From Candidatus Thiodiazotropha endoloripes (GTDB taxonomy: Bacteria > Pseudomonadota > Gammaproteobacteria > Chromatiales > Chromatiaceae), in the NCBI GenBank assembly GCA_001709035.1, contig LVKA01000008.1, positions 620,001 through 684,000 on the forward strand: a DNA stretch of 64,000 nt, read 5' to 3'. The notes beneath the pieces were generated by a model. That model was not told the DNA's origin, made no database searches, and saw only the letters and a program-made list of their open reading frames with translations. Below are positions 10,654 to 54,065 of this stretch, piece by piece (within the stretch, counting starts at the first letter, position 1; each line of letters starts with the position of its first letter). Made by a program: the position numbers and the translations under genes.

Positions 10654-10920
10654 AGGGCCTGTTAACACTAATCCAATGCGCCCTGCTGGGGCTGTTTTTG
10701 TGCCCGGCAAGGCAGAGTGAGCGTGGTGTAGCCCGGCTACATGAGCGAAATATAACGCCGCTGGGTGCAAAAACAGCCCCAGCCCTCCGGGTTGTGCCTG
10801 AAAAAGCGCCACTCGGCGTTGCTCGTCGCTCACTTGGAATAACCAAACTTCTCTCCTCGCGCCTTGATTGGCGCTTTTTCAGGCACAACAGGGCGTATTG
10901 GATTAGTGTTAACAGGCCCT
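10654..10920. repeat. Foldback element family 1, copy C (267 bp)
   Basis: A complete copy in the 10543-11014 gap. Both ends read AGGGCCTGTTAACACTAATC inward. Hairpin II comes first (arms 10685-10700 and 10768-10783, perfect 16 bp) and hairpin I second (arms 10792-10811 and 10869-10888, perfect 20 bp around CCTGAAAAAGCGCCA). This is the reverse orientation of copy F, which has the same length. Nothing else is recognised in the gap. Confidence 0.93.
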
Positions 10921-11014
10921 GGTCTGTGCTTGCTTGACTGATCGACAGTCTGCTTGATCCAGACAAAATATCTCTCTAAATATAGCGGAATTCTCGAATG
11001 GGTCATGAAATGGC

Positions 11015-12025
11015 CTAGAGAGGCTGTCGTTCTGCCGCGGTGAAACGCTTCAGTCGATAGAGTTTCCACGGCTGCTGTTGCTGCTGACACATGCCGTAGC
11101 GAAAGGGTGGTGTCAGATAGGGCAGGGTGTATCGCAGGTCGGTAAACCAGATACAGGTTTCACCCGGGAATTGGTCCAATCGATAAAGGATCGGGAAATG
11201 GGCGAACTGCCTGAACTTCTGCAGTTGATCCTGCTGCCAGGCGATTGAAACCAGTGGGGTTTGTCGGGCCTGGTCAGTGGGTAGCCGATAGGTTTTCCAC
11301 GTCAGGTTGTGTGCCCCCCGGTAGTCCCTGAAGATTGCCTGGTGCTCGGCGGTCAGGCTTAGATAGGCGACCTGGTAGTGGCTTTGGTGGCGATTGATCA
11401 GTTGCCAGTAGAAGGGCGAGAAGGGTTGTGGCAGTGCATGCAGATCCGTCGCTTGGGGGAACTGTCTGGCTGCCACCTGCAGGGCTTCCGATTTAAGCAG
11501 CCACTGACCACTCAGATAACCACTCAGAATAAGCAGACCACTCAGGGCCACCCTGCGGGGAGGGTGGCGGAGCAGTAGCAGCAGGGTAACCACAATAATT
11601 GCAGTGAAATAGCCATCGATGAAAAAACTGATCGCCAGGCTATAAGAGGTTGTTGCGATAGGGTAAAAGAGTTTAATCCCGAACGGGGTCAAGAGGTCCA
11701 ACGGGAGGTGGGAGAGCAGGCCCAGACAGCAGAGGGCATAGGTCGTTCGCCAATGGTTTCGCGCCCACCGCCAGGGGAGGCTGCAGAGTGTCAACAGAGC
11801 CGCCCAGAGGGGAATCAGCAACAGAGAGTGGGTGGCGCTGCGATGCCAGTCGGCGAGAAAAAGTAAGGGGTCTATCCAGAACCCCAGGTAGTCGATGTCG
11901 GGAAAGGCGGCCGCCATGCCGGTGATGACCATGCGCCGGGGGAGCTCGTTGGATCCGGCCGACGGTGTGCGATGCAGGGCGGCAGTGCAGACCGCGCCGA
12001 ACAGGGCATGGGTTATGGTATCCAT
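11015..12025 (-). CDS. YdjM-like membrane metal-dependent hydrolase
   Basis: 336 residues. The N-terminus MDTITHALFGAV, the FPDIDYLGFW segment and HRSATHSLLLIPLWA match the YdjM/DUF457 family, whose conserved His/Asp residues are thought to bind a metal. At least five transmembrane segments lie in the first 190 residues, followed by a soluble C-terminal domain (about 190-336) rich in tryptophan and tyrosine. E. coli YdjM is under LexA control; no SOS box was identified here. The biochemical activity is unproven. It follows the TetR-type gene by 19 nt. Confidence 0.85.
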   Translation of the reverse strand: MDTITHALFGAVCTAALHRTPSAGSNELPRRMVITGMAAAFPDIDYLGFWIDPLLFLADWHRSATHSLLLIPLWAALLTLCSLPWRWARNHWRTTYALCCLGLLSHLPLDLLTPFGIKLFYPIATTSYSLAISFFIDGYFTAIIVVTLLLLLRHPPRRVALSGLLILSGYLSGQWLLKSEALQVAARQFPQATDLHALPQPFSPFYWQLINRHQSHYQVAYLSLTAEHQAIFRDYRGAHNLTWKTYRLPTDQARQTPLVSIAWQQDQLQKFRQFAHFPILYRLDQFPGETCIWFTDLRYTLPYLTPPFRYGMCQQQQQPWKLYRLKRFTAAERQPL

Positions 12026-12044
12026 CTTTGGCAGCTATCGCAGT

Positions 12045-12731
12045 TCAGTGGACGATGCTACCGTTCTCCTGTTGCTGATTTGACGAATCCGATGTCTCGG
12101 GCCTATAGGCGTCCGCTTCTGCTGCAGCAGTCAGTAGGTTGAAAGACTCGGCCCTACTCAGTAGTCGGTCGAGCAGCTTCGCTGTCTTCTCCGCACCGCT
12201 GGAATCATCAAACAGCCAGTGCGCGAATGTGCTGAGATAGATGCCGGTTGTAACCACCTCTTCACCGATCCGCTTCAGATCTATCGAGTCGCGATGGGCT
12301 GCCTCAAGGAACCATTGGACGGTACGGCTGATTCTCAACAGACCGAGCACCTGCAGGTGGAGATGGCCCAGTTCAAACTTGTAGCCAAGCATCTCCCGGC
12401 TCACTTTTCGTTGATTCTGCATCGAAGTGAGCCAGCAGAAGATCGATCGATGGATACGTTCTCTCGGGGTGAGCCACTGATAATCCTCCTGTGCTGCATC
12501 GGCCAGCATGGCTCGGTCCGCCCGGTCGTACCAGGCTTCAACAAGATCATCTTTCTGTCGGTAGTAACGTTGCACAGTCTGCAGGTCGATCCCCATCTCT
12601 TCCGCTACTTGGTGGAGTCGAATGGACTCCCATGAGTTCTGCCCGGCCATTCGTACTGCGAAATCGAGAATCTTTTCCGCCAATTCATCAGGCGGCTGTG
12701 TATCAGTTTTAGGTTTCTGGTATGCCATCAT
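12045..12731 (-). CDS. TetR-family transcriptional regulator
   Basis: 228 residues. The N-terminal helix-turn-helix region is visible (about residues 15-65: LAEKILDFAVRMAGQNSWESIRLHQVAEEMGIDLQTVQRYYRQKDDLVEAWYDRAD), with the usual tyrosine-rich recognition helix. The rest is a helical ligand-binding domain of unknown specificity. The Ser/Gln/Glu-rich tail (DSSNQQQENGS) is probably disordered. It precedes the YdjM-like gene by 19 nt, so the two may be co-transcribed. A solo family 1 end lies just before its start. Confidence 0.82.
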   Translation of the reverse strand: MMAYQKPKTDTQPPDELAEKILDFAVRMAGQNSWESIRLHQVAEEMGIDLQTVQRYYRQKDDLVEAWYDRADRAMLADAAQEDYQWLTPRERIHRSIFCWLTSMQNQRKVSREMLGYKFELGHLHLQVLGLLRISRTVQWFLEAAHRDSIDLKRIGEEVVTTGIYLSTFAHWLFDDSSGAEKTAKLLDRLLSRAESFNLLTAAAEADAYRPETSDSSNQQQENGSIVH

Positions 12732-12745
12732 GGATACCTCTCTGT

Positions 12746-12762
12746 TGGTGTTAACAGACCCT
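12746..12762. repeat. Solo right end of foldback family 1
   Basis: GGTGTTAACAGACCCTG matches the right terminus of the family 1 element (GTGTTAACAGGCCCT) with one change. It lies 15 nt upstream of the TetR start codon and may contribute to its promoter region. No partner end is nearby. Confidence 0.55.
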
Positions 12763-12918
12763 GAATTATTTGAATTATAGTTACTGCAGACGGATGGGCA
12801 TCATGGAAGATATGGCAAGATACGTGGTATTTGCGAGTAAACTCTTTACTCGACAGGTGGATCATATGTGATGAGACCATTGGTGATTATAAAAGCCTGA
12901 CCCATGGGAGACCTGAGC

Positions 12919-13611
12919 ATGCACGGCAACTGTTTAATCAGGGTATTACCTAGCCATTTCATGGCTGGCTTGTTGGTATTTGTGATGGTGTTTAACGCCC
13001 ATGGTAAAACCCTTACAGACGAGGAGGATTTTTGGGAGGAGCCAGAGATCGAGGTCAATGAAGGGGTGCTTGAGTTTCTCTCTCAGCCACCTGAGAAGCC
13101 GGTTCACCATCATCAGAATCAGATTACCATTACCCGGTCTAGCCTGCAGGATGGCTGGGTCGAACTCTCACAATGTCACCACCATCTCGATCCGGTGCCC
13201 CGCCTGGAGATCGTCTATCACCCGCAACGCATCCGTGACATCCGCATCGTCTCATCAAACAATATCGGCCATGCCGAGGTGGTCGGGCACAAGCTGGATC
13301 TCAGTGATGTCAAACGATCCGCTGAGATCTGTCTGAGTGCTCAAAGCAGGGCGTTGCACAATCTGGGAGAGGGGCTCTACCAGTTACGCAATGGTCCTTA
13401 TATGCGCCGCTTTCTGGATGGCTACTATCCTATGCAACTCAGTCTGGAGGTTCGTTATCCAGCGGAGCGTATCGAGCTGAGCGGTCAGCAGCCTTTGCCC
13501 GAAGGGGGGGTTGATCAAGAATCCATGAATGGCCTGTTCAAGTGGAGTGGCTGGTTCACTGGCAAGCTATCGACGCAACTCGATTTCATGCTCAATCCGC
13601 TGAGTGAATAG
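12919..13611 (+). CDS. secreted protein of unknown function
   Basis: About 230 residues from the ATG at 12919 (in-frame ATG at 12904 also possible). A hydrophobic segment (LPSHFMAGLLVFVMVFNAHG) ending in an AHG-like cleavage site points to export. The mature part starts acidic (EEDFWEEPEIEVNEG) and continues as a beta-rich domain with a short His run (VHHHQNQ, CHHHLD). RIDIRIVSS-type strands are visible, but no family is recognised. It converges on dinB with 15 nt between the stops. Confidence 0.7.
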   Translation: MHGNCLIRVLPSHFMAGLLVFVMVFNAHGKTLTDEEDFWEEPEIEVNEGVLEFLSQPPEKPVHHHQNQITITRSSLQDGWVELSQCHHHLDPVPRLEIVYHPQRIRDIRIVSSNNIGHAEVVGHKLDLSDVKRSAEICLSAQSRALHNLGEGLYQLRNGPYMRRFLDGYYPMQLSLEVRYPAERIELSGQQPLPEGGVDQESMNGLFKWSGWFTGKLSTQLDFMLNPLSE

Positions 13612-13626
13612 TCGCCTTTAGGAATG

Positions 13627-14841
13627 TTACTCAGACTCTGATTCGGTTTTGGAGTCGACCCGTTTGCTGCCCAGGCGTATGGCGTGTTTGCCGAATTTTC
13701 CACTCACCTCATCCAGGGTTTGATAGAGCCGGTCCTGCCTCACTTCGGTGTGTGGCGCCGGATCTCCAAACAGATCCGGCTGTCTCTCCAGCTTATCGAT
13801 GGCGCCATCCCAGCCACTGATGCCAAGACCGATCAGCCGTACCGGCTGATCATCCCAGGGTTCATTGCGATAAAGCTCCCAGGCGGTTTTGAATATCTCC
13901 TGATCCGCTGAAGTCGGGGTCGTCAAGCTGCGGCTCCGGGTATGGGTGTCGAATCCACGAAAACGGATTTTCAGGGTTACCAGGCTCCCCTTGCGATGCT
14001 CCTGGCGGGCCACATATCCCACCTCCTGGGCCGACCAGTGGAGGCTCTCCCGCAGGATAGCCGGATCGGTGATGTCCTGGTCAAAGGTTGTCTCTTTGGA
14101 GATCGACTTGCGTGTCGACTGATCATCGACCCTGTCTGAGGCGATGCCCTGTGCCTGCTGATAGATATTGGTGCCCGCTAGATTACCCAGCTGACGGCGC
14201 AGCTCCAGCAGGGAGAGTCGACGTACATCGGCAATCGTGCGTAGCCCCAGACGCTGCAGGATGGGTGCACTCTTGCTACCGAGGCCACGCAGTACCGTCA
14301 GTGGCAGGGGGTTGAGAAACGCTTCGACCTGATCTGCTGTGACCACTGTCAGTCCATCCGGTTTCTGATAGTCCGAAGCGAGTTTTGCAATCAGACGGTT
14401 TGGTCCGATTCCCACCGAGGCGGTCAAGCCAACCTGATCGTGGATCAGCTGTTTTGCCTGCTGGCCGATCGACTCGGCATTACCGATCAGAAGCTCCATG
14501 CCGGTGATATCGAGAAAGGCTTCGTCTACAGAGACCTTCTCCACTACCGGTGAAAGGCTCTGCAGGGCAGTCATGATCTGTTGGGAAACCGCGCCATACC
14601 GGTTGATATCCGGACGCAGGTAGACAGCTTCCACCGGCAGGCGCCTGGCAGCCTCGCTGATCGGCATGGCCGAACGTACGCCGTAACGTCTGGCCTCATA
14701 GGAGCAGGTTGCCACAACCCCCCGCCTGCCGGGTTTTGCACCAACCACCAGGGGGCGGCCCTGGTACTCCGGATGGTCCCGTTGCTCAATCGAGGCAAAG
14801 AAGGCATCCAGATCGATATGCATAATCAGGCGTTCACTCAT
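13627..14841 (-). CDS. dinB: DNA polymerase IV
   Basis: 404 residues. Y-family polymerase for translesion synthesis. The start MHIDLDAFFASIEQRDHPEYQGRPLVVG holds the first catalytic Asp; VEKVSVDEAFLDITG holds the second Asp-Glu pair. ASVGIGPNRLIAKLASDYQKPDGL (palm/thumb) and LRGLGSKSAPILQRLGLRTIADV (helix-hairpin-helix) follow, then the little-finger domain. E. coli DinB is 351 residues; this one is longer at the C-terminus, where QPDLFGD resembles a beta-clamp binding motif, followed by a charged tail. DinB is commonly SOS-regulated, but no clear LexA box was found. Confidence 0.96.
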   Translation of the reverse strand: MSERLIMHIDLDAFFASIEQRDHPEYQGRPLVVGAKPGRRGVVATCSYEARRYGVRSAMPISEAARRLPVEAVYLRPDINRYGAVSQQIMTALQSLSPVVEKVSVDEAFLDITGMELLIGNAESIGQQAKQLIHDQVGLTASVGIGPNRLIAKLASDYQKPDGLTVVTADQVEAFLNPLPLTVLRGLGSKSAPILQRLGLRTIADVRRLSLLELRRQLGNLAGTNIYQQAQGIASDRVDDQSTRKSISKETTFDQDITDPAILRESLHWSAQEVGYVARQEHRKGSLVTLKIRFRGFDTHTRSRSLTTPTSADQEIFKTAWELYRNEPWDDQPVRLIGLGISGWDGAIDKLERQPDLFGDPAPHTEVRQDRLYQTLDEVSGKFGKHAIRLGSKRVDSKTESESE

Positions 14842-14965
14842 GGTGAGAGTTTATACCAATTAACCGGGAGGAAAATCTTGCTTGGGAGTGCTTTGGTTTT
14901 TCGATCGCAAATCGATTTTGCAGTTTTTGCTGGTTTCGTCAGGCGGTTCAAGCAGCCAGGCCCTG

Positions 14966-15213
14966 GTTAAACCTAGATTCCGCAGTTGACCGCTCCATTC
15001 TAACAGCAGGTTATTGATGTCGAAGGAAATAGTTTCGATGCTCATGGTCACCTGCTGGATGAATCACGCTACAGGGCGAATTGCACGCTTGTGGCGGCGC
15101 ATGGCGGCGTTGCAACTCCTTGCAATAGCGGGCTACTGCGCGTCGTTGCGCCTTGCCCTGCACCCCCACAAGCGCACACTTCACCCTGTCCAACTGCGGA
15201 TTCTAGGTTAAAC
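14966..15213. repeat. Foldback element family 2 (248 bp, one copy)
   Basis: Fills most of the 14842-15272 gap. The outer arms (14966-14988 and 15191-15213) pair over 21 of 23 bp; the core is CCTAGA(T/A)TCCGCAGTTG. Inside are a short hairpin (CAGCAGGT 15004-15011 / ACCTGCTG 15050-15057) and a longer imperfect one (15071-15094 with 15166-15189, 20 of 24 bp). The sequence is unrelated to family 1, but the plan is the same. Confidence 0.75.
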
Positions 15214-15214
15214 G

Positions 15215-15245
15215 AAAAACCCGATTCAGATGACTGAATCGGGTT
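15215..15245 (-). terminator. Rho-independent terminator of the DUF6345-like gene
   Basis: A perfect 12-bp stem (AACCCGATTCAG / CTGAATCGGGTT) with a 4-nt loop, ending in a T run when read on the minus strand. It lies about 30 nt after the stop at 15273. Confidence 0.88.
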
Positions 15246-15272
15246 CTCTTTATCAAATGATCCTAAATTGCC

Positions 15273-17162
15273 TTACAGGATTTTGATACTCCAGTAGCCG
15301 ATGATATCCCCATCCCGGATATCCGGGCCGACGGATCCCTTGCCCCAGAAGTAGTCGTTCATATTCGACATGCCATTGTTACCCAACACACCCATTACCA
15401 CCGGGACTACACCGGAAGGTTGGTTGGTGTCGGTTGCTTCGAACCAGGAGGTTTTCACTGTCATCGGGCTGCTTTTCAGCATATTGTCCGCGAACTCCCC
15501 GGAGAAGCTGTTCCAGGCATAGGCATTGGTATGGAAACCGAGCAGCAGGTGAAGCCCATCGAACTCCTGTTTCCAGCGATCGAAGCGCGACATGCCGCTC
15601 CAGTCGTCCTTGAGTACCTGACAGGAGAGCAGAGCGAGCCACTCAAGATCCTTGTCGCCCCAATCATCGGTGGCGTCATCATGATCCAGGGTGCCGTCGT
15701 CATGGCTGTTATCTTCGAAGGTGAATCCACCACCATAACCATGACCGACATAGAAGGTCATATCGGTATTGTCGATCCAGTTGCTGTCTTGACTGGCTTT
15801 GAAGTCCTGCTCCCAGGCTAGGGTTCCCGACCAGCTGAAGCGCTCAGTGACACCCGCACTCTGCATGCGATCGATAAAGCCCTGCTCAAGATCACCAAAC
15901 TCATTGGTCACCGCATTCTCAGTACCGTAATCGGTAATGCCACCTATCGCTTCTACCGCCGGGATCAATGTTTCGAGCATGGCTGTGACGGCATTGGTGA
16001 AGAAACGACTGATCGCGGACTCGTTATGTTGTGAGACCAGATTGGCAGGCAGGTTGGCAGTGACCACACGCTGAATACCATTAGCATCGGTCACCGTGAC
16101 ACTGACGCTCTCTTCGCTGATGCCGTCACGCTGCTGCGGATAAAAAGAGATCGTTGAACCGTTCCTCTCCTGAAGTTTTGCACGAGTGGCGCTCCAGTCG
16201 ATCTGGTAGGGGGGCATTCCGCCATTGATATCGACCTTTGCATTGACTGTTTTGCCATCAAACCAGCTGTCGAGTGTCACTTCCGGAACATATTCGCTAC
16301 TGTCAACTGCGGGGATCAGTTGATGCAGAAGATTGACGATCTCACCATCCACGACGGCCGTTCCACCGCAATCATAGTGTGGCTGGATGGTCTTCACTGA
16401 GGTCATTTCCAGGCTGGGTGCAAAATAGACCAGTTGGGTGGTGATGTTGAGTTTTTCGAAGGCTTTACTCTGTTCGCCACTCAGAAGCTTCTCACGACAT
16501 TGCAGTTTGGCTGCGGTGTGATCGATGACTGGCACCGGTTCACCCTGTTGCAGCGAGCGGTTGGCAAAATAGAGCTGGGTGGTGTTGCCTTCACTGCCTA
16601 CGGTTGTGGAGATTTTTGCACCGGGTCCGATCAGTGGAATGTCGCCGGCGTAGAGTTGCAGGTCCACCTTGGTATCGATCATTTGATCAGCCAGGAGTTT
16701 GCCATCGATATCCACCGCCTCGAATTGTGTGTGACGCAGTATCGGTTTATAGACTTGTGGCAACAGACCGATCTCATCCAATGAGCCTTCCAGCTGATGC
16801 AGGACCACATCCTCTTCAATCGGCTGGATCATTGACAGGGCATCAAAATCGATCTGTTCAATGGTGGTTGATCGCTTCTCTTCGTCCGCCTCACCCCGAC
16901 CGGCAATCCGGGTTGGGATGTACTGGTGATTTTTCAAATCGATGTAGCTGAGTTCACCGGTTCGTTGTACCGTCTCGAAATCGATGCGATCCGGGTTGGC
17001 GTCAAGTAGCTTCGACAGTTGATAGGCTTGATTTTCCGACAGGCCATTATCGATTGCGTGATAGACCGGTAGATCCTTGGCGAATGCATGCCCCTGCAGG
17101 CCAATGGCTGAACAGCACAATGCGATCGTTACCGCTTTATTGGATTTTTTTACAATATCCAT
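15273..17162 (-). CDS. secreted DUF6345-like protein with His/Cys pair
   Basis: 629 residues. A signal peptide (AVTIALCCSAIGLQGHAFA) is followed by an N-terminal region (about 30-290) of unknown fold, a beta-sandwich-like segment (about 300-380, PPYQIDWSATRAKL, VSVTVTDANGIQRVV) and a C-terminal domain (about 420-629). The last contains DMTFYVGHGYGGGFTF and LEWLALLSCQVL, then FDGLHLLLGFHTNAY. The HG followed by SC resembles the His-Cys dyad of caspase-like (clan CD) folds, and the pattern matches my recollection of DUF6345 proteins. Enzymatic activity is an inference. A strong terminator follows; no operon partner. Confidence 0.72.
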   Translation of the reverse strand: MDIVKKSNKAVTIALCCSAIGLQGHAFAKDLPVYHAIDNGLSENQAYQLSKLLDANPDRIDFETVQRTGELSYIDLKNHQYIPTRIAGRGEADEEKRSTTIEQIDFDALSMIQPIEEDVVLHQLEGSLDEIGLLPQVYKPILRHTQFEAVDIDGKLLADQMIDTKVDLQLYAGDIPLIGPGAKISTTVGSEGNTTQLYFANRSLQQGEPVPVIDHTAAKLQCREKLLSGEQSKAFEKLNITTQLVYFAPSLEMTSVKTIQPHYDCGGTAVVDGEIVNLLHQLIPAVDSSEYVPEVTLDSWFDGKTVNAKVDINGGMPPYQIDWSATRAKLQERNGSTISFYPQQRDGISEESVSVTVTDANGIQRVVTANLPANLVSQHNESAISRFFTNAVTAMLETLIPAVEAIGGITDYGTENAVTNEFGDLEQGFIDRMQSAGVTERFSWSGTLAWEQDFKASQDSNWIDNTDMTFYVGHGYGGGFTFEDNSHDDGTLDHDDATDDWGDKDLEWLALLSCQVLKDDWSGMSRFDRWKQEFDGLHLLLGFHTNAYAWNSFSGEFADNMLKSSPMTVKTSWFEATDTNQPSGVVPVVMGVLGNNGMSNMNDYFWGKGSVGPDIRDGDIIGYWSIKIL

Positions 17163-17440
17163 GTGTATGATCCTTTAATTAAATCGTGTGAGAAAGAACT
17201 GGATGATCCGTTAACTACCTGGATGCTCCCTTGAAGAACGATCCCTGATCGAACTGGGTGTTAAGCTACAGAAACCGGACCGGCATTGGCTGTGGAAAAT
17301 TACCAAGCAGGTAGATGATTTGTTCACATTCAGAACAAGTGCGTGAGTGATCGGTGTGGAATCGTGCTGCCGGATGGGAGAGCTTTGTTTGGTGAGATAA
17401 CGGTTGTTGGATCGTCGGTGGTTGTTTCTGTTGAACAGTC

Positions 17441-18544: not shown

Positions 18545-18908
18545 TGTCTGTTCTGCCCTGAACCTGTCACCCCTAGGTCAATCCATTGTAACAAGACAAT
18601 AACGATAATAAATGTGTTTGTTAGAATCCTGCTTTATACGCTCTCAGTACCTCATCTAGGTGCTGAATCGGCTATCATTTGCGGAACAGGATGGAATTCA
18701 CCTGGCCTGGGAACTCGAAGGGGTTGTAGCTTTCAAAATTGCGTTGCTCTATACCTTTTAGGTGTGAATCTCTGATTAATTCTCTTTATCAGCATTACGC
18801 TCATGCCGGTATAACGGGTTTGCCAGGGTTCTCATAAAAATATTAAACATCGGTAGTGTGTCATGCCTGATTGCGACCAACGGCTGGCATTACCACGAGG
18901 AGGTTGAT
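18545..18908. other. intergenic region between divergent genes
   Basis: 364 bp between the divergent lipoprotein and molybdenum-hydroxylase genes. AT-rich stretches around 18596-18625 and 18755-18800 could hold promoters, but I see no clear -35/-10 pair, repeat or RNA gene. Confidence 0.5.
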
Positions 18909-22551: not shown

Positions 22552-22553
22552 GC

Positions 22554-23162: not shown

Positions 23163-23172
23163 GCTGGAGGCT

Positions 23173-32808: not shown

Positions 32809-33267
32809 ATGACTACAAATAACTCAATCATATGGTGTGAAGATATGGCCACTGGTGTGGATGTGATCGATTCCCAGCACCAGAATCTGTTGCAAATGGT
32901 CAACGATGCCTACAAGGGATTGGATGAGGAGTTCAGTGAGGTGGTATTTCAAAGGATAACAAAAGAACTATTGAGCTATGCAATTTATCACTTTCAAACA
33001 GAAGAGCATCTGATGAAAGAGTACGGTTATTTTGAGGAGTGTCCTGAAGATGCAACCCAGCATGTTGAAGAACACAGAAGTTTCTCAGCAAAGGTGGTGT
33101 CTGCAAGAGATAGTGTAAATAGTGAAGTCAAAGAGGAGATGGTGCAGATATTGGAATTTCTAAACAGCTGGATCATGAACCATACACAGAATGTAGATTT
33201 AAAACTGGGAGCATTTATACGGATGAAAGACAAACAAGGTGAATATGAAGGGTCTAGGGACTGCTAA
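32809..33267 (+). CDS. bacteriohemerythrin
   Basis: 152 residues, the size of one hemerythrin four-helix bundle. Iron-ligand motifs: IDSQHQNLLQMVN, YHFQTEEHLMKEYGY, HVEEHRSFS and WIMNHTQNVDLKLGAF, covering the five His plus Glu and Asp of the di-iron site. It probably binds oxygen reversibly and may report it to the upstream GGDEF sensor, 14 nt away. The last codons (SRDC and the TAA stop) are read from the end of a foldback element inserted at 33256, so the original C-terminus has been replaced. Confidence 0.93.
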   Translation: MTTNNSIIWCEDMATGVDVIDSQHQNLLQMVNDAYKGLDEEFSEVVFQRITKELLSYAIYHFQTEEHLMKEYGYFEECPEDATQHVEEHRSFSAKVVSARDSVNSEVKEEMVQILEFLNSWIMNHTQNVDLKLGAFIRMKDKQGEYEGSRDC

Positions 33268-33430
33268 CCCGAATCCAATACGCCCTGCTGGGACTGTTTT
33301 TGTGTCCAGCAAGGCAGAATGAGCGCGGTGTAGCCCGGCTACATGAGCGAAAGATGACGCCGCTGAGCGCAAACACAGACCCAGCCTTTCAGGTACAACA
33401 GGACGTATTGGATTCATGTTAACAGGCCCT
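33256..33430. repeat. Foldback element family 1, copy D (175 bp, internally deleted)
   Basis: Left end AGGGACTGCTAACCCGAATC (three changes from the family consensus), right end GTGTTAACAGGCCCT-like (ATGTTAACAGGCCCT). Hairpin II is kept with its TGTAGCCCGGCTACA inner palindrome, but hairpin I is reduced to a short remnant (TTTCAGGTACAACAGG). Same orientation as copies C and E. It overlaps the 3' end of the hemerythrin gene. Confidence 0.88.
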
Positions 33431-38729: not shown

Positions 38730-38968
38730 CTCGATACTCCCCGTCAATGATCTTGCTTCGGTGTTGCGCACACCTGGGTGGCTGGTTGCCAAATAACCCC
38801 CAAACAGGGTGTAAACAGGCCTTAGCTACCGCCCCTTGAATATAGAAATCCTGGATGGTTCTGTGCTCTTTTCCAGCATCTGAGGATACCGGTACGAATC
38901 TTGTTTTTAGAGAAAGTACACTAGAGGGTCATACCTGCTACGTCAATAGATGGTGGTTTTGCTGTTCG

Positions 38969-39255
38969 AGGGCCTGTTAACACGAATCCAATACACACTG
39001 CTGCGTCTTTTATTGTGCTCAGTAAAGCAGAATGAGCGTGGTGCAGTTATTCTACATGAGCGAATGATAACGCCGCTGGGCGCAAAAACAGCCCCAGCCC
39101 CCTCTTTAGATTATTCATAGGAGGGGTTGTGCCTGAAAAAGCGCTGCGAACCGTTGCTCGTTACTCATTTGGAATAACCAATCTACGCTTCTCGCGCCTT
39201 GATTGGCACTTATTCAGACACAATAGGGTGCATTGGATTCGTGTTAACAGATCCA
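38969..39255. repeat. Foldback element family 1, copy E (287 bp)
   Basis: In the 38730-39364 gap. Left end AGGGCCTGTTAACACGAATC, right end GATTCGTGTTAACAGATCC. Hairpin II precedes hairpin I, as in copies C and D. Between them sits an extra roughly 20-bp stretch (CCCCTCTTTAGATTATTCAT) absent from copy C. More diverged than C and F. A degenerate solo end (GTAAACAGGCCTTAG) lies just before it at 38811-38825. Confidence 0.88.
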
Positions 39256-39736: not shown

Positions 39737-39762
39737 ATTGGATTGGTGTTAACAGGCGCTAG
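39737..39762. repeat. Solo right end of foldback family 1
   Basis: ATTGGATTGGTGTTAACAGG followed by CGCTAG matches the right 25 bp of the family 1 element with few changes. No partner end is near. Confidence 0.6.
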
Positions 39763-46242: not shown

Positions 46243-46370
46243 TACGCCTTCTCCTTACACCATGATATTGCCGGGTTCGGTTGGTCTGTCAGCGTTCAGG
46301 GCAAAGCGCATCTCAGCGCGAATGGCAGTAGCCCTTAACAACAGATGTACGCGTCCACAGAGGTGAAAAA

Positions 46371-47015: not shown

Positions 47016-47025
47016 GCTTTTTATA

Positions 47026-47496: not shown

Positions 47497-47564
47497 GATT
47501 GTGTTTAACCGCGAATGGGAGGGGATTAAGGTGGGGGCACCCTATACCCAGAAATCAACAGTAG

Positions 47565-47583
47565 GGTGGGGCCTTGCCCCACC
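47565..47583. repeat. short perfect hairpin, GGTGGGGC arms
   Basis: An 8-bp perfect stem (GGTGGGGC, 3-nt loop, GCCCCACC) between the convergent rhodanese and cysG genes. It could end transcription in either direction, but no T run follows. Confidence 0.5.
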
Positions 47584-47690
47584 AAATACTGCTTGTGGTG
47601 CGGCTAAGAGTCTGAGTTGTTGATTAACCGCAAATACACACCAATCACCACAACTTAAGGCAAATAATTGGCTATGCGTCCATTTGCGGC

Positions 47691-49115
47691 TTAAAAATCT
47701 ACCGGTGAAGTGGCGCCCTGCTCGGAATGGGGTGGCGTCTCGAACCAGGCCAGCTTCTCATGCAGTTCGACTACGTGGCCGACAATGATCAGTGTAGGAG
47801 GCTTGGGGCGTTCCCGTTCCACTGTCTCCAGGATATTCTCCAGGGTGCCGGTGAAGACACGCTGCATATGGGTCGTGCCCTGCTGGATCAGGGCGATCGG
47901 CATGTCGCCGGACACACCATGAGCCTGCAGTTCCCGACAGATCACCGGTAGGCCAACCAGCCCCATGTAGAAAACCACGGTCTGGTTCGGTTGCGCCAGC
48001 ATATCCCAGTTCAGGTTCATGCTGCCGTCTTTCAGATGGCCGGTGACGAAGGTGACTGACTGGGCGTAGTCCCGATGGGTGAGCGGAATTCCGGAGTAGG
48101 TGGCGCAGCCCGCCGCAGCGGTGATTCCCGGAATCACCTGAAACGGCACCCCTTCAGCGGCCAGGGTATCGATCTCCTCGCCACCACGGCCGAATATAAA
48201 GGGATCCCCCCCCTTCAGCCGCAATACCCGCTTTCCCTGTTTGGCGAGACTGGCCAGCAGCTTGTTGATCTCTTCCTGGCGCATGGCGTGCTTGTCGCGC
48301 TCTTTGCCCACATAGACATGCTCCGCGTCGTGACGGGTCATCTCGAGAATCGGTTTTGCCACCAGCCGGTCGTAGACCACCACGTCCGCCTGCTGCATCA
48401 GACGCAATGCACGGAAGGTCAGCAGGTCCGGATCCCCCGGTCCGGCGCCGACCAGGTAGACCTCACCCATCTCCTGGTCCAGACGGGGATCCGCCAGAAG
48501 ACGCTCCATCAGCTGATCCGCCTCCTCATCGTGACCGGAAAAGACCCGCTCGGCAACACCCCCCTCCAGTACCCGGTCCCAAAACAGGCGCCGGTCCTCC
48601 GGATTGTTGAAATGGTCCTTGACCCGTTGGCGAAAGCGGTTGCACAGGTTCGCTAGGCGGCCATAACCGGCAGGGATCAGGGATTCCAGTCTGGAGCGGA
48701 TCAGACGCGCCAGTACTGGCGATGCTCCACCGGTTGAGACGGCGGCCACCACCGGTGAGCGGTCGATGATCGAGGGGACGATGAAACTGCACAATTCAGG
48801 CTGGTCCACCACATTGACGGGAATACGCTTGGCGTGGGCCAGCTCGGCTATATGCCGATTGAGTTGTGGATCGTCGGTGGCGGCAATCACCAGATGACGG
48901 TCGTTGATATCCTCATCCTGGAAGCCCCTCGCCTGGTGATTGAGGCGCCCCATATCCCGCCAAGTGATCAGATCGTGGGTCAATTCAGGGGAGACCAGAA
49001 CCACATCCGCCGCGGATTTGAGCAGTAGTGAGATTTTTCTTTCAGCGACTGCACCGCCGCCTACCACCAGGCATGATTTGTTTCTGATGTTCAGGAATAT
49101 TGGGAAAAATTCCAT
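47691..49115 (-). CDS. cysG: siroheme synthase CysG (fused methyltransferase, dehydrogenase, ferrochelatase)
   Basis: 474 residues from the ATG at 49115; the frame is open to 49184, but MEFFPIFLNIRNKSCLVVGGGAVAERKISLLLKS is the family start. The N-terminal half is the CysG-B dehydrogenase/ferrochelatase (NAD-binding GGGAVAERK, SPVVAAVSTGGASPVLARLIR). The C-terminal half is SAM uroporphyrinogen methyltransferase (VYLVGAGPGDPDLLTFRAL, DVVVYDRLV, RLKGGDPFIFGRGGEE, PGITAAAGCATYSGIPLTHRDYAQSV). It makes siroheme, needed by sulfite reductases of DSR and assimilatory types. A rhodanese-tusA-dsrE2 cluster is divergent next door. Confidence 0.96.
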   Translation of the reverse strand: MEFFPIFLNIRNKSCLVVGGGAVAERKISLLLKSAADVVLVSPELTHDLITWRDMGRLNHQARGFQDEDINDRHLVIAATDDPQLNRHIAELAHAKRIPVNVVDQPELCSFIVPSIIDRSPVVAAVSTGGASPVLARLIRSRLESLIPAGYGRLANLCNRFRQRVKDHFNNPEDRRLFWDRVLEGGVAERVFSGHDEEADQLMERLLADPRLDQEMGEVYLVGAGPGDPDLLTFRALRLMQQADVVVYDRLVAKPILEMTRHDAEHVYVGKERDKHAMRQEEINKLLASLAKQGKRVLRLKGGDPFIFGRGGEEIDTLAAEGVPFQVIPGITAAAGCATYSGIPLTHRDYAQSVTFVTGHLKDGSMNLNWDMLAQPNQTVVFYMGLVGLPVICRELQAHGVSGDMPIALIQQGTTHMQRVFTGTLENILETVERERPKPPTLIIVGHVVELHEKLAWFETPPHSEQGATSPVDF

Positions 49116-49293
49116 AAAATACAACCGGTTAATAAGTGTTTGTTGTTCAAGGTTTTGCCATTGCGAGACTCTAGCATGAGTCAATCACATTAAAAAAGCC
49201 AGGCTTTAGGCGGCTAATCAAACTTGCAATATTTAAACACATTAATATACTAATTAACTCTGTTTTTAGAGATATTGAGGCTGCCCGAACGTG

Positions 49294-49620
49294 ATGATAA
49301 AGGAAATAGACGCTTCCGATCTTGAGGCCCGCATGGCCAAAGACGGTGATTTTCTGCTACTGGACATCCGTAGTGCCGGTGAACTGGCGCAGGGGGTGTT
49401 ACCGGATGCCGAGCATATTCCGATGCATCTGATTCCTGTTCGCATGTCCGAGCTGCCAAAAGACAAGGATCTGATCCTCTACTGCCACAGTGGAGCGCGT
49501 TCCTACCACGCATGTGCCTATCTGGCGCAGCAGGGCTTCGACAACGCAGTCAATCTACGCGGCGGCATTCTGGGTTGGGCGAGATCGGGTTATCGTCTGG
49601 AGACCAGGCTGGCCAGCTGA
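49294..49620 (+). CDS. rhodanese of the rhd-tusA-dsrE2 sulfur relay
   Basis: 108 residues from the ATG at 49294 (a GTG one codon earlier is in frame). Single rhodanese domain: LLLDIRSAGELAQGVLPDAEHIPMHLIPVRM, then the active-site loop LILYCHSGARSYHACAYLAQQGF and VNLRGGILGWARSGY. It can take sulfane sulfur on its Cys and pass it to TusA. The neighbours tusA and dsrE2 make the cluster seen in purple sulfur bacteria and other sulfur oxidisers. Confidence 0.92.
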   Translation: MIKEIDASDLEARMAKDGDFLLLDIRSAGELAQGVLPDAEHIPMHLIPVRMSELPKDKDLILYCHSGARSYHACAYLAQQGFDNAVNLRGGILGWARSGYRLETRLAS

Positions 49621-49808
49621 GGCCAACCGTTCCGGATCAGGTTGAAAAGATTTACAGGCAGGCCGGAATTGGTTCCGGGTCTGCGGTTTTGGAGGGGATT
49701 GGAGCGGACAGAAGCTTGCGTTTGTAAGTCGCTTGTCATATAAAGGTCCGTCTGATTTTTACCCAAAAACGATACACACACACAATTTAAAAAGCTGGAG
49801 GTCATACC

Positions 49809-50039
49809 ATGGCAGATTTTGATCAAGAACTGGACGCAAGCGGACTCAACTGTCCCCTGCCGATTCTGCGTGCGAAAAAAACCCTGAATGGTATGGAGTC
49901 CGGTAAAGTTCTGCACATCATTGCAACTGATCCAGGCTCAGTTAAGGATTTCGAAGCCTTCGCCAATCAGACGGGTAATGAGCTGATGGAATCCAAGGAA
50001 GTTGGCGGTAAGTTTGAATTCCTCATCAAAAAGGCCTGA
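49809..50039 (+). CDS. tusA: sulfur carrier protein TusA
   Basis: 76 residues. DASGLNCPLPILRAKKTLNGMESGKVLHIIATDPGSVKDFEAF contains the CPxP motif with the sulfur-accepting Cys. Ribosome site CTGGAGG precedes the ATG by a few nt. TusA passes persulfide between rhodanese, DsrE-type proteins and further enzymes of sulfur oxidation. It lies between the rhodanese gene and the DsrE2 gene. Confidence 0.94.
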   Translation: MADFDQELDASGLNCPLPILRAKKTLNGMESGKVLHIIATDPGSVKDFEAFANQTGNELMESKEVGGKFEFLIKKA

Positions 50040-50089
50040 TCAGCGATCAGTTTGCCAATCCCATTAGGGACTTAATTGGAGACGAAGCA

Positions 50090-50572
50090 ATGTCAGACGA
50101 AAAAAAGTTAGCGATAATTGCGACTAAAGGCTCTTTAGACTGGGCCTATCCGCCATTTATCCTGGCCTCAACAGCCGCTGCACTGGGTTACGAAACCGAG
50201 ATCTTCTTCACTTTCTACGGTCTGCAGCTCCTGAAAAAGGATCTGGATCTGGAAGTGACCCCGCTGGGCAATCCCGGTATGCCGATGCCGATGGGTATGG
50301 ACAAGTGGTTTCCTGTGGTCGGTCTGGCGCTGCCAGGCATGCAGGGCATGATGACCAGCATGATGAAGAAAAAGATGGCTTCAAAAGGCGTTGCCGACCT
50401 GGCTGAGCTGCGTGAGCTTTGTCAGGAAGCCGAAGTCAAGCTGATCGCCTGTCAAATGACAGTGGATCTGTTCGAGATGAATACCTCTGAATTCATCGAC
50501 GGTATCGAATACGCCGGTGCCGCCAGATTCTTCGAATTCGCGGGTACTAGCGATATCTGCCTTTACATTTAA
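50090..50572 (+). CDS. dsrE2: DsrE2-type sulfurtransferase-like protein
   Basis: 160 residues. KLAIIATKGSLDWAYPPFILASTAAALGYETEIFFTFYGLQLL is the start of DsrE/F-like family proteins; the long middle loop with Met-rich PGMPMPMGMDKWFPVVGLALPGMQGMMTSMMKKKM is typical of DsrE2, thought to be membrane-associated. VKLIACQMTVDLFEM holds the conserved Cys. It probably exchanges sulfur with TusA. A strong terminator follows at 50595, closing the cluster. Confidence 0.92.
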   Translation: MSDEKKLAIIATKGSLDWAYPPFILASTAAALGYETEIFFTFYGLQLLKKDLDLEVTPLGNPGMPMPMGMDKWFPVVGLALPGMQGMMTSMMKKKMASKGVADLAELRELCQEAEVKLIACQMTVDLFEMNTSEFIDGIEYAGAARFFEFAGTSDICLYI

Positions 50573-50594
50573 CCCTGAGTAAATGCAGTCACGG

Positions 50595-50623
50595 CGCCGC
50601 CCCACAAGGGCGGCGTTTTTTTT
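50595..50623 (+). terminator. Rho-independent terminator of the sulfur-relay cluster
   Basis: An 8-bp GC stem (CGCCGCCC / GGGCGGCG) with a 5-nt loop and eight T residues (50616-50623), 20 nt after the dsrE2 stop. Confidence 0.92.
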
Positions 50624-50783
50624 GCGCTTGAAAAAGCCACACTGGGGTTGCCAGCGGCTAAGCTTTCACAAGCCGCTAATGCCGGCCAATCACCGCAAGC
50701 ATCCACAAAATGTATCGACCGGGTAGCCGCTCTGGCTCGTATTGAACGGGGCTGTTCAGAGTTAAAACTGAATTTAAATGGAT

Positions 50784-50812
50784 AAAAAGGGGTGCGGCAA
50801 TCAGCCGCACCC
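50784..50812 (-). terminator. Rho-independent terminator of the FadL-like gene
   Basis: A 9-bp stem (GGGTGCGGC / GCCGCACCC) with a T run read on the minus strand, 22 nt after the stop of the porin gene. Confidence 0.9.
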
Positions 50813-50834
50813 GAATTATGGATCGTCAGATCTT

Positions 50835-52112
50835 CTACATGAAGGTCTTGGTCACGCCGAGACCGAACAGATGCACACTGGAGTCGTAGGTGCCGTTCAC
50901 AGCGGTGGTGCCGTTCAACTCCTCACCCACAACGGCGGCTTTGTCGCTGTTGATGGTCCGTTTGTCGAAGTCCACATACATATAGGCCACATCGAATGTC
51001 CAGCCATCATCGATGGTGTGTCCAACGCCCAGGCTGTACAGCTGACGATCCGCATCAGGCACCCGCGGACTGAAATAGTCTTCTTTCTGTGGGGTTTCGT
51101 CGTAGGTGTAGCCAATCCTCAACTGGGTCGCCTTGGAGAAGTCATAGGTCACGCCTAGACGGTAGGCGGAGGCATTGTCGAAGTCGTTGACACTGGTAAA
51201 AATGTTGGAGCCGAACTGCTCATTTTTGACTTCCAGGGTATCGAACTTGTTCCAGCCGGTACGGGTGTAGTCAAATTCGATCGCCAGCTTTTCAGTGGCT
51301 TCATAGCGAGCCCCAACCTGCAGTCGCCAAGGCAGCTCAAGGGTCGCAGTGACCTCGTCTGAGAGGGTCGAGGGCAGAACGCCGACGTCATCATCCAGGG
51401 TGCCTTCCGCTTTGATCTTCGAACTGGAGTGGTAGTTCAGACCGAAACTCCAGCTATCCACCACCAACAGGCCGCCCAGGTTGAAACCGACACCCTGGCC
51501 GTCACCTTCCAGATTAAAGCCCGGATAGGTGCCGCCATCGTTGAGAACGCTGTTGAACAGCACTTCCCGCATCCAGTAGTAGTCAACACCGATTGCCAGA
51601 GCGGCCTGATCGTTGAGTTTGTAGGAGGCGCTGGGGCTGAAGGCGACGATCTCAAGCTTGGTCTGTGTGGGCATGAATGAACCCAACGGATATTGATCAC
51701 TGTAGGTATCCGTCTCCCAGTCGGTCTCCAGACCGAAGGGGGCATTGACTGAAATACCCAGGGACCACTCCTCGTTGAGGGTGTCGTGTGCGGATATGGC
51801 CGGTACGGCAACCAGTTCGTTGCCTTCGCTGTCGACCGTTCCTGATCCGGTATCGACGCTCAGGTCGGGTAGCACCAGGTTGGTTCCCAAAGAGACGGAA
51901 CTGCCTTCGTGAAAGGACATGGCGGCCGGGTTATAGGGGATGGCTCCCAGGATTTCGTGATTTGCGACCAGCGCGTTGGATGTGGCCGTGCCTGCGATGC
52001 TCAGCTCCGGAATGGCGAAGCCTGAGGCCTGTACCCCAGAGCTGGCCATCAACAGGGCCGAACTGCAGGCGACTGCCAGGGTTGTGGCTTGAAACTTATT
52101 TTTATGGTGCAT
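50835..52112 (-). CDS. OmpP1/FadL-family outer membrane transport protein
   Basis: 425 residues from the ATG at 52112, after GGAGG; the frame is open further upstream. A signal peptide (ATTLAVACSSALLMASSGVQA) ends before SGFAIPELSIAGTATSNALVANHEILGAIPYNPAAMSF, which is the family N-terminal plug/hatch with the NPAA motif. The rest alternates as beta strands (EWSLGISVNAPFGLETDW, LRIGYTYDETP, GWTFDVAYMYVDF) and ends in Phe-rich FGLGVTKTFM. It imports fatty acids or other hydrophobic compounds. It stands alone with its own terminator. Confidence 0.91.
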   Translation of the reverse strand: MHHKNKFQATTLAVACSSALLMASSGVQASGFAIPELSIAGTATSNALVANHEILGAIPYNPAAMSFHEGSSVSLGTNLVLPDLSVDTGSGTVDSEGNELVAVPAISAHDTLNEEWSLGISVNAPFGLETDWETDTYSDQYPLGSFMPTQTKLEIVAFSPSASYKLNDQAALAIGVDYYWMREVLFNSVLNDGGTYPGFNLEGDGQGVGFNLGGLLVVDSWSFGLNYHSSSKIKAEGTLDDDVGVLPSTLSDEVTATLELPWRLQVGARYEATEKLAIEFDYTRTGWNKFDTLEVKNEQFGSNIFTSVNDFDNASAYRLGVTYDFSKATQLRIGYTYDETPQKEDYFSPRVPDADRQLYSLGVGHTIDDGWTFDVAYMYVDFDKRTINSDKAAVVGEELNGTTAVNGTYDSSVHLFGLGVTKTFM

Positions 52113-52159
52113 GCGGATCCTCCACCTTTCTGTTGTTATGTCCAGACCGGCCTTGCTTA

Positions 52160-52222
52160 AGGAACCTCTGAACAAGTCATGAACCGACAATCTGTTCGGC
52201 TCAGATTTATTCAGAGGTTCCT
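52160..52222. repeat. short inverted-repeat element (63 bp)
   Basis: AGGAACCTCTGAA and TTCAGAGGTTCCT form perfect 13-bp arms, with a smaller near-palindrome inside (AACCGACAATCTGTTCGG). It lies in the 52113-52467 gap between the divergent porin and LysR genes, upstream of the porin start. Similar AGGAACCTCTGAA ends are, from memory, scattered in other proteobacteria. The remaining gap shows nothing else clear. Confidence 0.65.
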
Positions 52223-52467
52223 AAATTTATTCTTAGGTCCTGGTTGAGTCTGGTGCGATTCTATTCCTGATCAGACCATTTATCATCCATCGGCAAGTTC
52301 AGTCAAACTGAAGATCAGTTAAATGTGCGAACAGGCCCGAGCAGAAATTACCATAACCTGTCTGCGGGAAAAAAGGAAAAGTGACTCAGCGCTCCCTAAA
52401 GCTAGCTGTTTGTGGTATAAAAGTTGTTTATCCATACAAAGAACAACTGATCGGACATCATAGACAC

Positions 52468-53376
52468 ATGGCGGATCGTAGATTACAGGTTTTTCATACA
52501 GTTGCGCGTCTTTTAAGCTTTACCAAGGCGGCTGAGACCTTGCATATGACCCAGCCGGCAGTAACCTTTCAGGTGCGGCAACTGGAAGAGTATTTCAATA
52601 CCCGATTGTTCGACAGAACCCACAACCGGATCAGCCTGACCGAGGCTGGGGAGCGGGTATTCAGTTACGCCGATCGCATTTTCGACCTGTATGCGGATAT
52701 GGAGAACTCTGTCAGGGAGATGACCGGAGAGATCCGTGGTGCATTGACCATTGGTGCCAGTACCACCATCGCAGAGTACATGCTGCCCTCGTTACTGGGC
52801 GATTTCGGTACACGTTATCCGGAGGTGACGATCCATCTGCGGGTTTCAAACTCCGAAGGGATTGTCTCCATGGTGGAGAACAACAATATCGACCTGGGAG
52901 TCGTGGAGGCGCCGGTCGGTAACAAGAATCTGGTGGTTGAAGTTTGCCGTAATGATCAATTGGTGGCCATCGTACCGCCCAACCATGACCTGGCGAATCA
53001 GGAGACCGTGGCGATAGAGGAGTTGCTGGAGTACCCCTTTATCTGCCGGGAAGAGGGTTCGGGTACCCGTGAAGTGATCAACGAGTATCTGGATAATAAT
53101 TGTGCCGACTCGACACTCAATATCTACATGGAGCTGGGTAGTCCGGAAGCGGTAAAAGGCGCCGTGGAAGCGGGTATGGGTGTCTCGGTGGTCTCCCGGG
53201 CGACCATCCAGAAAGAGTTGAAGCTGGATACCCTGAGGGCGATCAATCTGGCGCCGGCAATGGAGCGTCCATTCTCATTTGTCCATCAGAAGCAAAAATT
53301 TCGCCTGCGGGCCATGGAAGAGCTGCTCGAATTTGCTCGTGGCTATTGTGAGGATCATGCTGAAGAGCAGTTGTAG
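52468..53376 (+). CDS. LysR-family transcriptional regulator
   Basis: 302 residues from the ATG at 52468, where MADRRLQVFHTVARLLSFTKAAETLHMTQPAVTFQVRQLEEYFNTRLFDRTHNRISLTEAG is the winged helix-turn-helix; a frame from 52381 would add an unlikely leader. The effector domain (about 90-295) follows: GALTIGASTTIAEYMLPSLLGDF, FICREEGSGTREVINEYL. It is of the CysB/selenium-metabolism type in general layout. The effector is unknown. Divergent from the FadL-like gene, which may be its target. Confidence 0.9.
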   Translation: MADRRLQVFHTVARLLSFTKAAETLHMTQPAVTFQVRQLEEYFNTRLFDRTHNRISLTEAGERVFSYADRIFDLYADMENSVREMTGEIRGALTIGASTTIAEYMLPSLLGDFGTRYPEVTIHLRVSNSEGIVSMVENNNIDLGVVEAPVGNKNLVVEVCRNDQLVAIVPPNHDLANQETVAIEELLEYPFICREEGSGTREVINEYLDNNCADSTLNIYMELGSPEAVKGAVEAGMGVSVVSRATIQKELKLDTLRAINLAPAMERPFSFVHQKQKFRLRAMEELLEFARGYCEDHAEEQL

Positions 53377-53403
53377 GCTCTAACTGCAACGAGGTTGGTA
53401 TCG

Positions 53404-53796
53404 GTGCATATTGTACCCAAACAGCAAAAGCTCGATCCTGAGCAGCAGCGGCTGCTAGACCTCTTTGAGCGGATTGCGCCGAGTGATCGGGACTCCCTGT
53501 TGGCGTTTGCTGAGTTTCTGTCACAACGACCCTCTCAGGAGGCCGTGTCTGTTGATCGAAGCTCGCCCCTGGAACCAAAACAGCTCGAACGGCCTGCGGA
53601 TGAGTCCGTGGTGAAAGCGATCAAGCGTCTCTCCGAGAGCTACTTTATGCTTGAACGGGATCAGTTGCTGGATGAGACCTCGTCCCTGATGACCTCCCAT
53701 GTCATGCAGGGTAGAACCGCCGTGGAAGTGATCGATGATTTGGAAGCGCTGTTTAAAAAGCACTATCAAAACTATCTGAGCGAGTCGTCGGGTTAA
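53404..53796 (+). CDS. small helical protein of unknown function
   Basis: About 130 residues from the GTG at 53404 (TTG at 53395 also possible; GAGG lies before it). The first part (LDLFERIAPSDRDSLLAFAEFLSQR) and last part (VKAIKRLSESYFMLERDQLLDETSSLMTSHVMQGRTAVEVIDDLEALFKKHYQNYL) are helical; between them is a flexible, Pro/Glu-rich linker. No family is recognised. It follows the LysR gene by 27 nt, and its stop lies 2 nt before foldback copy F. Confidence 0.65.
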   Translation: MHIVPKQQKLDPEQQRLLDLFERIAPSDRDSLLAFAEFLSQRPSQEAVSVDRSSPLEPKQLERPADESVVKAIKRLSESYFMLERDQLLDETSSLMTSHVMQGRTAVEVIDDLEALFKKHYQNYLSESSG

Positions 53797-53798
53797 CT

Positions 53799-54065
53799 AG
53801 GGCCTGTTAACACGAATCCAATACGTCCTGTTGTGCCTGAAAAAGCGCCAATCAAGGCGCGAGGAGTGTAGTTTGGTTATTCCAAATGAGCGACGAGCAA
53901 CGCCGAGTGGCGCTTTTTCAGGCGCAACCCGAAGGGCTGGGTCTGTTTTTGCGCCCAGCGGCGTTATCATTCACTCATGTAGAATGACGACACGACGCTC
54001 ATTCTGCCTTGCTGGGCACAAAAACAGACCCAGCAGGACGTATTGGATTCGTGTTAACAGGCCCT
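53799..54065. repeat. Foldback element family 1, copy F (267 bp)
   Basis: A complete copy flanked by TA at each end. Both ends read AGGGCCTGTTAACACGAATC inward. Hairpin I comes first and hairpin II second (arms 53936-53951 and 54019-54034, perfect 16 bp), the reverse of copy C, with which it shares length and most bases. It separates the LysR pair from the PerM-like gene. Confidence 0.93.

Follow-up and report, generated by a model that had tools for sequence, protein, structure and literature searches.

A probable IS5-type foldback MITE with hairpin arms that change in pairs in Candidatus Thiodiazotropha endoloripes

The window analysed here is a 64,000-nucleotide stretch of contig LVKA01000008.1 from Candidatus Thiodiazotropha endoloripes (positions 620,001 to 684,000). 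All five long foldback copies listed in the initial annotation are present in it, with lengths of 284, 267, 175, 287 and 267 bp, and they share the ends AGGGCCTGTTAACAC and two nested hairpins. The 284-bp copy (plus strand) has a longer linker and starts at 3346 as first given, with its end corrected from 3630 to 3629. The minus strand carries the full element C (10654..10920), a 175-bp deletion derivative in which the terminal stem and hairpin II are retained (33256..33430) and a 287-bp copy with one decayed end (38969..39255). The full element F (53799..54065, plus strand) has the same 267-bp length as C and the opposite orientation, and both orientations occur among the copies. Matches to AGGGCCTGTTAACAC with at most 3 mismatches number 22 in the window against 1.36 expected, a count reached in none of 100 shuffles. 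The window copies lie between genes or at gene ends, and their mean GC of 0.53 is similar to that of the window. They carry no ORF of 150 aa; 267 bp corresponds to 89 codons at most.

Copy F illustrates the anatomy of the full element. Its mobile part (53800-54064, GGG...CCC) is flanked by two TA. 

On the plus strand, the two arms of the terminal stem (53799..53829 and 54035..54065) enclose hairpin I (53830..53928, loop AAGGCGCGAGGAG..CCAAATGAGCGACGAGCAACGCC), a linker mini-hairpin CCCGAAGGG (53928..53936) and hairpin II (53936..54034), and the loop of hairpin II seems related, in inverted form, to that of hairpin I. In C, hairpin I is at 10791-10889 and hairpin II at 10685-10783. The three paired differences first noted between C and F hold when read from the sequence: at end position 16, C has T10669-A10905 and F has G53814-C54050, at position 28 the pairs are C10681-G10893 (C) and T53826-A54038 (F), and the hairpin II pair G10691-C10777 of C corresponds to T53942-A54028 of F, reversed, a change from G-C to T-A.

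In addition, the window holds shorter traces of the family. One is an unstranded 22-bp footprint, TA-GGGCCTGTTAACAGGCCC-TA (7838..7859), as would arise from a deletion between the two GTTAAC; 16 sites of this kind are found in the genome with at most 2 mismatches, 6 of them exact. The sequence of the short sites matches the product of a deletion between direct repeats (GTTAAC, GGCCCT) within the palindrome. A solo end on the minus strand (39737..39760) recurs at the same place in G002, G008, G009 and G011 and is an old remnant. Solo end-like matches, also on the minus strand, lie at 6278..6292 and 38809..38823 (2 mismatches each) and at 12748..12762 and 55614..55628 (1 mismatch each). The short and solo copies look like footprints of slippage deletion.

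The family extends well beyond the window. A genome BLAST gave 93 matches, both orientations counted, at at least 40 places, a lower bound since 40 were scored out of 208 first-look candidates. There are 232 ends with at most 3 mismatches in the genome and none of the reversed control pattern. Copies are present in all 22 genomes of the genus. Identical copies were found at two loci, and loci L090 and L110 look like one site in two MAGs. The element had no match in the phage collection, and its exact end was not found in the viral contigs. The element is short, has many copies and has terminal inverted repeats, as a MITE does.

The element inserts at Y-TA-R targets, and the TA is duplicated. 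Among 72 two-ended elements with at most 2 mismatches per end, taken from 83, TA stands on both sides in 63, Y outside the left end in 70 and R outside the right end in 70. The flank combinations CT/AG (25), CT/AA (18), TT/AG (12) and TT/AA (10) all occur, and therefore only TA is duplicated. Empty sites show the same pattern. At the site of copy F, G002 has a single TA, GTTAACTAACATCC, where F reads GTTAACTA[element]TAACATCC, and the element at G011:52055 has an equally clean empty site in G008. These two are the clean cases, and the remaining sites are decayed or poorly alignable. G008 and G011 lack a full element at the counterpart of 3346..3629, where G002 has other sequence, and G011, G008, G009 and G013 lack one at the counterpart of 33256..33430. 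The place of 38969..39255 is empty or holds short remnants in relatives.

IS5-family insertion sequences about 800-840 bp long have terminal repeats that match the outer 17 bp of the element (16 in some copies). Positions 10655-10671 of C are an exact 17-bp IS end, and 53800-53816 of F agree at 16 of 17 bases with the terminal repeat of L196, an IS5-family element, the exception being position 16 (G, not T). A class-wide search recovered the IS partner. In G140, another gammaproteobacterium, an IS with an intact ORF occupies 801 bp between two TA, has the ends GGGCCTGTTAACACTAA, and encodes a protein that matches NF033580 (transpos_IS5_3) at 2.5e-67. The genus-mate G013 has a decayed IS copy. 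In the genus-mate G007, IS copies over the family cut-off are split into two overlapping frames and depart from the MITE end by a single mismatch on one side and by 5 on the opposite side; a third copy has one weak end only. All five plasmid IS picked for checking have TA-flanked ends such as GGGCGTGTTAACACTAA. We call these IS IS427-like because of the 2-bp duplication, which the element shares; PMC3281130 gives 832-865 bp for IS427-group members, most with 2-bp duplications.

The host genome, a draft assembly from which a repeated IS could be lost, yielded no transposase of the DDE_Tnp_1, DDE_3 or NF033580 type, so the mover is inferred from relatives. The transposase search proposed earlier gave IS with matching ends in G140, G013, G007 and plasmids. 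A search for an autonomous element among the first 141 records found neighbouring convergent ends at most 321 bp apart, with a limit of 4 kb. In G382 (L195), two ends 3.3 kb apart belong to a 57-bp element and to a separate solo end; the genes between them look like tolQRAB-pal and include no transposase. The initial annotation had named a match to a described IS-derived MITE among the findings that would overturn it. The ends do match an IS family, but literature searches gave no description of this particular MITE. Of the identities first proposed, a non-autonomous mobile element is borne out by the TA duplication, the empty sites in relatives and the IS-family ends, and the element is best described as an IS-derived MITE.

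The paired changes extend far beyond C and F. Alignment A1 holds 64 distinct full copies (83 elements, reduced to 65 of 260-325 bp with both loops), and 95.8% of its cells are paired across 93 pairs. Both sides have changed in 38 of the 93 pairs, against 13.4 +- 2.1 in shuffles, and the two-sided change cells number 149 against 34.2, falling to 13-19 when the partner is slid by 1-3 columns. Events were counted by Fitch parsimony on FastTree trees of short palindromes that may recombine. Changes of both sides on the same branch number 55, against 10.5 +- 3.2 for re-paired columns (maximum 19 in 200). The excess persists when L114:3286 and L025, which have many doubles, are removed (46 against 7.7) and on a tree from unpaired columns alone (86 against 18.3). 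Twelve of 49 doubles adjoin another on the same branch, with 2.5 expected and six of the 12 on the single long branch of L114. At pair 16, short branches carry three separate T-A to G-C changes; an error in the tree or exchange among copies could account for them. The hairpin II loop is inverted in 1 of 24 elements.

We suggest that the element is probably an IS427-like MITE of the IS5 family, moved in trans by an IS5-type transposase, with arms matched by template switching. The transposase would have been supplied in trans and is apparently now missing from the host genome. DNA polymerase would switch template between the arms and copy a mutation to the opposite arm. The arms would thereby change in pairs and remain complementary, and RNA selection would not be needed. 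Template switching is reported to cause arm homogenisation, multibase tracts and loop inversion (PMC8794818, PMC8604942). Of the three causes first offered for the paired changes, conversion between arms is the best fit to the mutation mix and the tracts.

Unexpectedly, the two-hairpin core is also found in other Gammaproteobacteria, with different stems and sometimes different terminal repeats, and a hairpin-I-like relative lies in a Magnetococcus plasmid. The cross-genus set was reduced from 24 elements to 20 by dropping a single-hairpin element and three of an already represented genus; loci L228, L232, L240 and L250 gave no bounded element. Across genera the hairpin I loop is 78-82% identical. 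The loop motif itself was used to retrieve 12 of the 20 elements, a choice that biases the set towards a conserved loop, and the 8 remaining elements were treated separately. The conserved loops are left unexplained by template switching. Tentatively, the core could itself be the mobile module. Its loops would be kept by function across Gammaproteobacteria, as folded DNA to which a protein of the host or of transposition binds, MITEs with several different terminal repeats would have carried it, and template switching would have rewritten its stems pair by pair. The core would then be a parasite of IS5-type transposases in which the shape is kept and the stem sequence is not.

An unlikely alternative is that the folded DNA, as a cruciform or single-stranded hairpins, is recognised by a transposase or by a protein of the host, so that mismatched copies are immobile and only well-paired foldbacks found subfamilies. 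The loop kept between genera where stems are not, and the recurrence of the core with different terminal repeats, agree with this, and so does the terminal stem, whose 31 pairs contain no more than 2 mismatches in 54 of 65 copies. Against it, IS5-family elements with similar ends are nearly filled by their gene, and elements of 57-164 bp in other genomes have TAGGGTCTGTTGAC ends and different interiors, so movement in itself does not require this core.

Selection for a folded transcript, with compensatory paired changes, is improbable. The covariation is strong, the loop is conserved, and on one strand the CCCTTCGGG linker could fold into a UNCG tetraloop. Rfam gave no match to the element, however, and the copies occur in both orientations. 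Single changes off a Watson-Crick pair gave 83 G.T and 66 A.C (P = 0.19), counted per event because inherited columns make the per-cell count look skewed. G.T was slightly above A.C in all three runs (83:66, 79:61, 92:72; the first alone tested), an excess that is not significant, and tolerance of wobble on one strand was not seen. In upper hairpin II the columns have C.A/A.C where those of hairpin I have G.T on the same strand. Transversions are equally frequent in doubles (17 of 49) and singles (85 of 234; P = 0.87). Template switching between the arms is a better fit than selection on an RNA because the paired changes have the mutation mix of singles, no clear G.U preference, and tracts.

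Two further origins are very improbable. IS630/Tc1-mariner elements also duplicate TA, in keeping with the Y-TA-R target, but DDE_3 was not found in the host, and the IS5 match of the ends disfavours them. In the genus, four places turned up among 3 of the 22 genomes; not one of the four is flanked by this end at both sides, although an exact GGGCCTGTTAAC lies roughly 1 kb from one locus and one locus is truncated where its contig stops. A REP/BIME-like repeat moved by a RAYT would agree with the high copy number, the palindromes and the location of the window copies in intergenic stretches or at the ends of genes, but not with a 265-bp foldback that has a TA duplication and IS5-family ends.

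The family cautions that strong covariation in repeats can arise from arm-to-arm DNA copying and does not necessarily imply a functional RNA. With copies in every genome of the genus, the family offers many natural replicates for measuring template switching in bacteria. Its most interesting part is the cross-genus core, where the loop is conserved and the stems change freely.

The IS427 group of the IS5 family (NF033580) resembles the element in the outer 17 bp, GGGCCTGTTAACACTAA, and in the TA on both sides, whereas the element has no gene and its interior consists of two long hairpins. The G007 members are in two overlapping frames, as are some members of the group in PMC3281130. Prokaryotic MITEs derived from IS, such as MITEAba12 and QMITE2 of Coxiella (PMC10969869), are likewise short and without a gene, with terminal repeats, target duplication, many copies and a stable fold. 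MITEs are typically AT-rich according to PMC10969869, whereas this element has a GC of 0.53, is nearly wholly paired and has relatives across genera. MITEs are also abundant in the sulfur bacterium Thiomargarita; those described in PMC4853749 differ in having a 10-bp direct repeat or TATAG ends. Finally, the inverted repeats studied for template switching (PMC8794818, PMC8604942) share the two-sided changes, tracts and loop inversion, but they lie in RNA genes and yeast coding genes, whereas here the process would affect a mobile foldback.

The foldback element can be assigned with confidence as an IS5-derived MITE. The window (G000:C7:620001-684000) contains five long copies with AGGGCCTGTTAACAC ends, together with one 22-bp footprint and several solo ends. 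The coordinates of the long copies in the initial annotation hold, apart from the end of the first copy, which is at 3629 and not at 3630. The three paired changes described there between the full 267-bp copies C (10654-10920, -) and F (53799-54065, +) are also confirmed when F is read in the opposite orientation. In the 175-bp copy, the left end (33256-33267) overlaps the final codons of an ORF (32809-33267) whose stop codon may have been supplied by this insertion.

In the host genome (G000, a draft of 4.87 Mb in 25 contigs), the 267-bp query gives 93 matches at 40 scored places among 208 candidates. Ends with up to three mismatches number 232, against 0 for the reversed control pattern; 95 lie on the + strand and 137 on the - strand, and solo ends should account for this skew. 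An element match is found in 23 of 40 genomes, own included: all 22 of the genus, none of the three from the family's other genera and 1 of 15 others. The end pattern YTAGGGYCTGTTRACR is present in 58 of 369 gammaproteobacterial genomes, with 6 matches altogether for the reversed pattern. In a separate scan of named genomes for the exact end, 67 of the 80 matches listed belong to Candidatus Thiodiazotropha or unnamed lucinid-clam symbionts.

The element is mobile. The long copies are missing at the orthologous places of close relatives. Where the alignments are clean, a single TA is present at the empty site and two at the occupied one (copy F versus relative G002; G011:52055 versus G008). TA flanks both sides of 63 of 72 elements; outside the TA, Y stands on the left and R on the right in 70 of 72 each. 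Because these letters combine freely, the duplication is TA alone. At the copy F site, only the left end remains in G008, and G011 has a scar joined at GTTAAC. Sites of 22 bp, TA-GGGCCTGTTAACAGGCCC-TA, occur 16 times in the host genome with up to two mismatches (six exact), and five 31-bp units ending GGCCCTA occur in the fetched loci. Both kinds of site may be leftovers of deletion between direct repeats (GTTAAC or GGCCCT), which would produce such sequences. Identical own-genome copies at different loci (L006 and L007) suggest recent movement.

Why do the arms change in pairs? In an alignment of 65 full copies, 95.8% of cells are paired and 38 of 93 pairs show two-sided change. Excluding the double-rich copies L114:3286 and L025, there are 46 changes on both sides of a pair on one branch versus 7.7 in the re-paired-column control; on a tree built from the unpaired columns alone, the figures are 86 and 18.3. 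Compensatory RNA evolution should proceed preferentially through wobble pairs on one strand, and this is not clearly seen. Single changes leaving a Watson-Crick pair give G.T 83 times, A.C 66 and others 85, a G.T preference that is not significant (P = 0.19), and the share of transversions is 17 of 49 among doubles and 85 of 234 among singles (P = 0.87). On the unpaired-column tree, transversions are 30 of 67 Watson-Crick doubles, with G.T 92 and A.C 72. Doubles are clustered, as 12 of 49 adjoin another on the same branch versus 2.5 expected (0 of 2000 draws that high), though six of the 12 lie on one long branch. Among 24 cross-genus elements, one (L246) carries the hairpin II loop in inverted orientation (8 versus 21 mismatches), and the orientation is ambiguous in four. 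Homogenisation by template switching between the arms is the likely explanation; paired changes, tracts and loop inversion are the pattern it predicts (PMC8794818, PMC8604942).

Searching with the loop motif detects hairpin I in 23 of 369 genomes. The exact end pattern is absent from six of them, and three of the six belong to a single genus. The two-hairpin layout is common to 20 elements from different sources, most about 265 bp long. Averaged over pairs of these elements, identity is 0.82 for the hairpin I loop and 0.81 for the linker, versus 0.57 and 0.65 for the hairpin I arms and 0.41-0.43 for the inner terminal stem. Since 12 of the 20 were fetched via the loop motif itself, the eight others weigh more on loop conservation; these give 0.78, 0.72, 0.53 and 0.57, and 0.35-0.38, respectively. 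Watson-Crick pairs are kept in 90, 83 and 77% of cells across the 20. The outer eight bases have an identity of 0.91, with exceptions such as AGAGCCTGTCTGTGAA, GGGCGTGTCATCACAC and GAACCTATCTCAAAA, not all of them TA-flanked on both sides. Conservation is weaker in the hairpin II loop (0.57-0.60), which seems to be related, in inverted orientation, to the hairpin I loop. An Rfam search with the element gave no match.

Nine of the 65 aligned copies (L037, L044, L045, L048, L055, L085, L095, L114:3286 and L136) carry a 27-base insert with the core ACCCCAAGGGCACTTCCTTCGGGG and repeated GGCGC/GGCGT-like bases on its flanks. It occupies three different places, as though an even smaller repeat were inserting into the MITE. 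It has 30 matches in 267 loci, 28 near a MITE end, these loci having been selected for MITE ends. Compared with L203 of the same genome, L202 (G105:C26) carries a different insert, roughly 35 bases long, within its hairpin I loop.

Searches of the open literature on Thiodiazotropha transposases, repeats, insertion sequences or miniature inverted elements, and on IS5-family MITEs, gave no description of the element. Searches of the host genome found no DDE_Tnp_1 (E <=0.01), DDE_3 or IS5_3 transposase, despite the 232 ends. The mover has been lost or was missed. Elsewhere in the genus, none of the four DDE_3 loci has MITE ends on both sides, one of these loci being cut by a contig end. Genome G140 carries an 801-bp element between two TA, with GGGCCTGTTAACACTAA ends and an intact transposase that matches NF033580 (IS5 family; Pfam domains DUF4096 and DDE_Tnp_1). 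Its 17-base end is exact in copy C and matches at 16 of 17 positions in copy F. A genus-mate, G013, has a decayed IS copy: one end is TAGGGCCTGTTGACACTAA, and the opposite one is similar. In G007, two IS copies combine TAGGGCCTGTTAACAATAA at one end with five mismatches at the opposite end, while the third has a single weak end; two of the three are split into two overlapping frames and score above the model cut-off. Palindromic elements of 57-164 bp (L195, L197-L201; genomes G382, G176, G093 and G376) have different interiors and common TAGGGTCTGTTGAC ends, so several distinct MITEs use this end type. Ends similar to those of the IS above, between TA, are found in all five plasmid IS chosen (Polaromonas, two Cupriavidus, Paracoccus and Variovorax), which were picked from the 20 listed among 2114 records with a match. 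In PMC3281130, IS427-group elements are mostly 832-865 bp long with 2-bp duplications, and some contain two overlapping ORFs.
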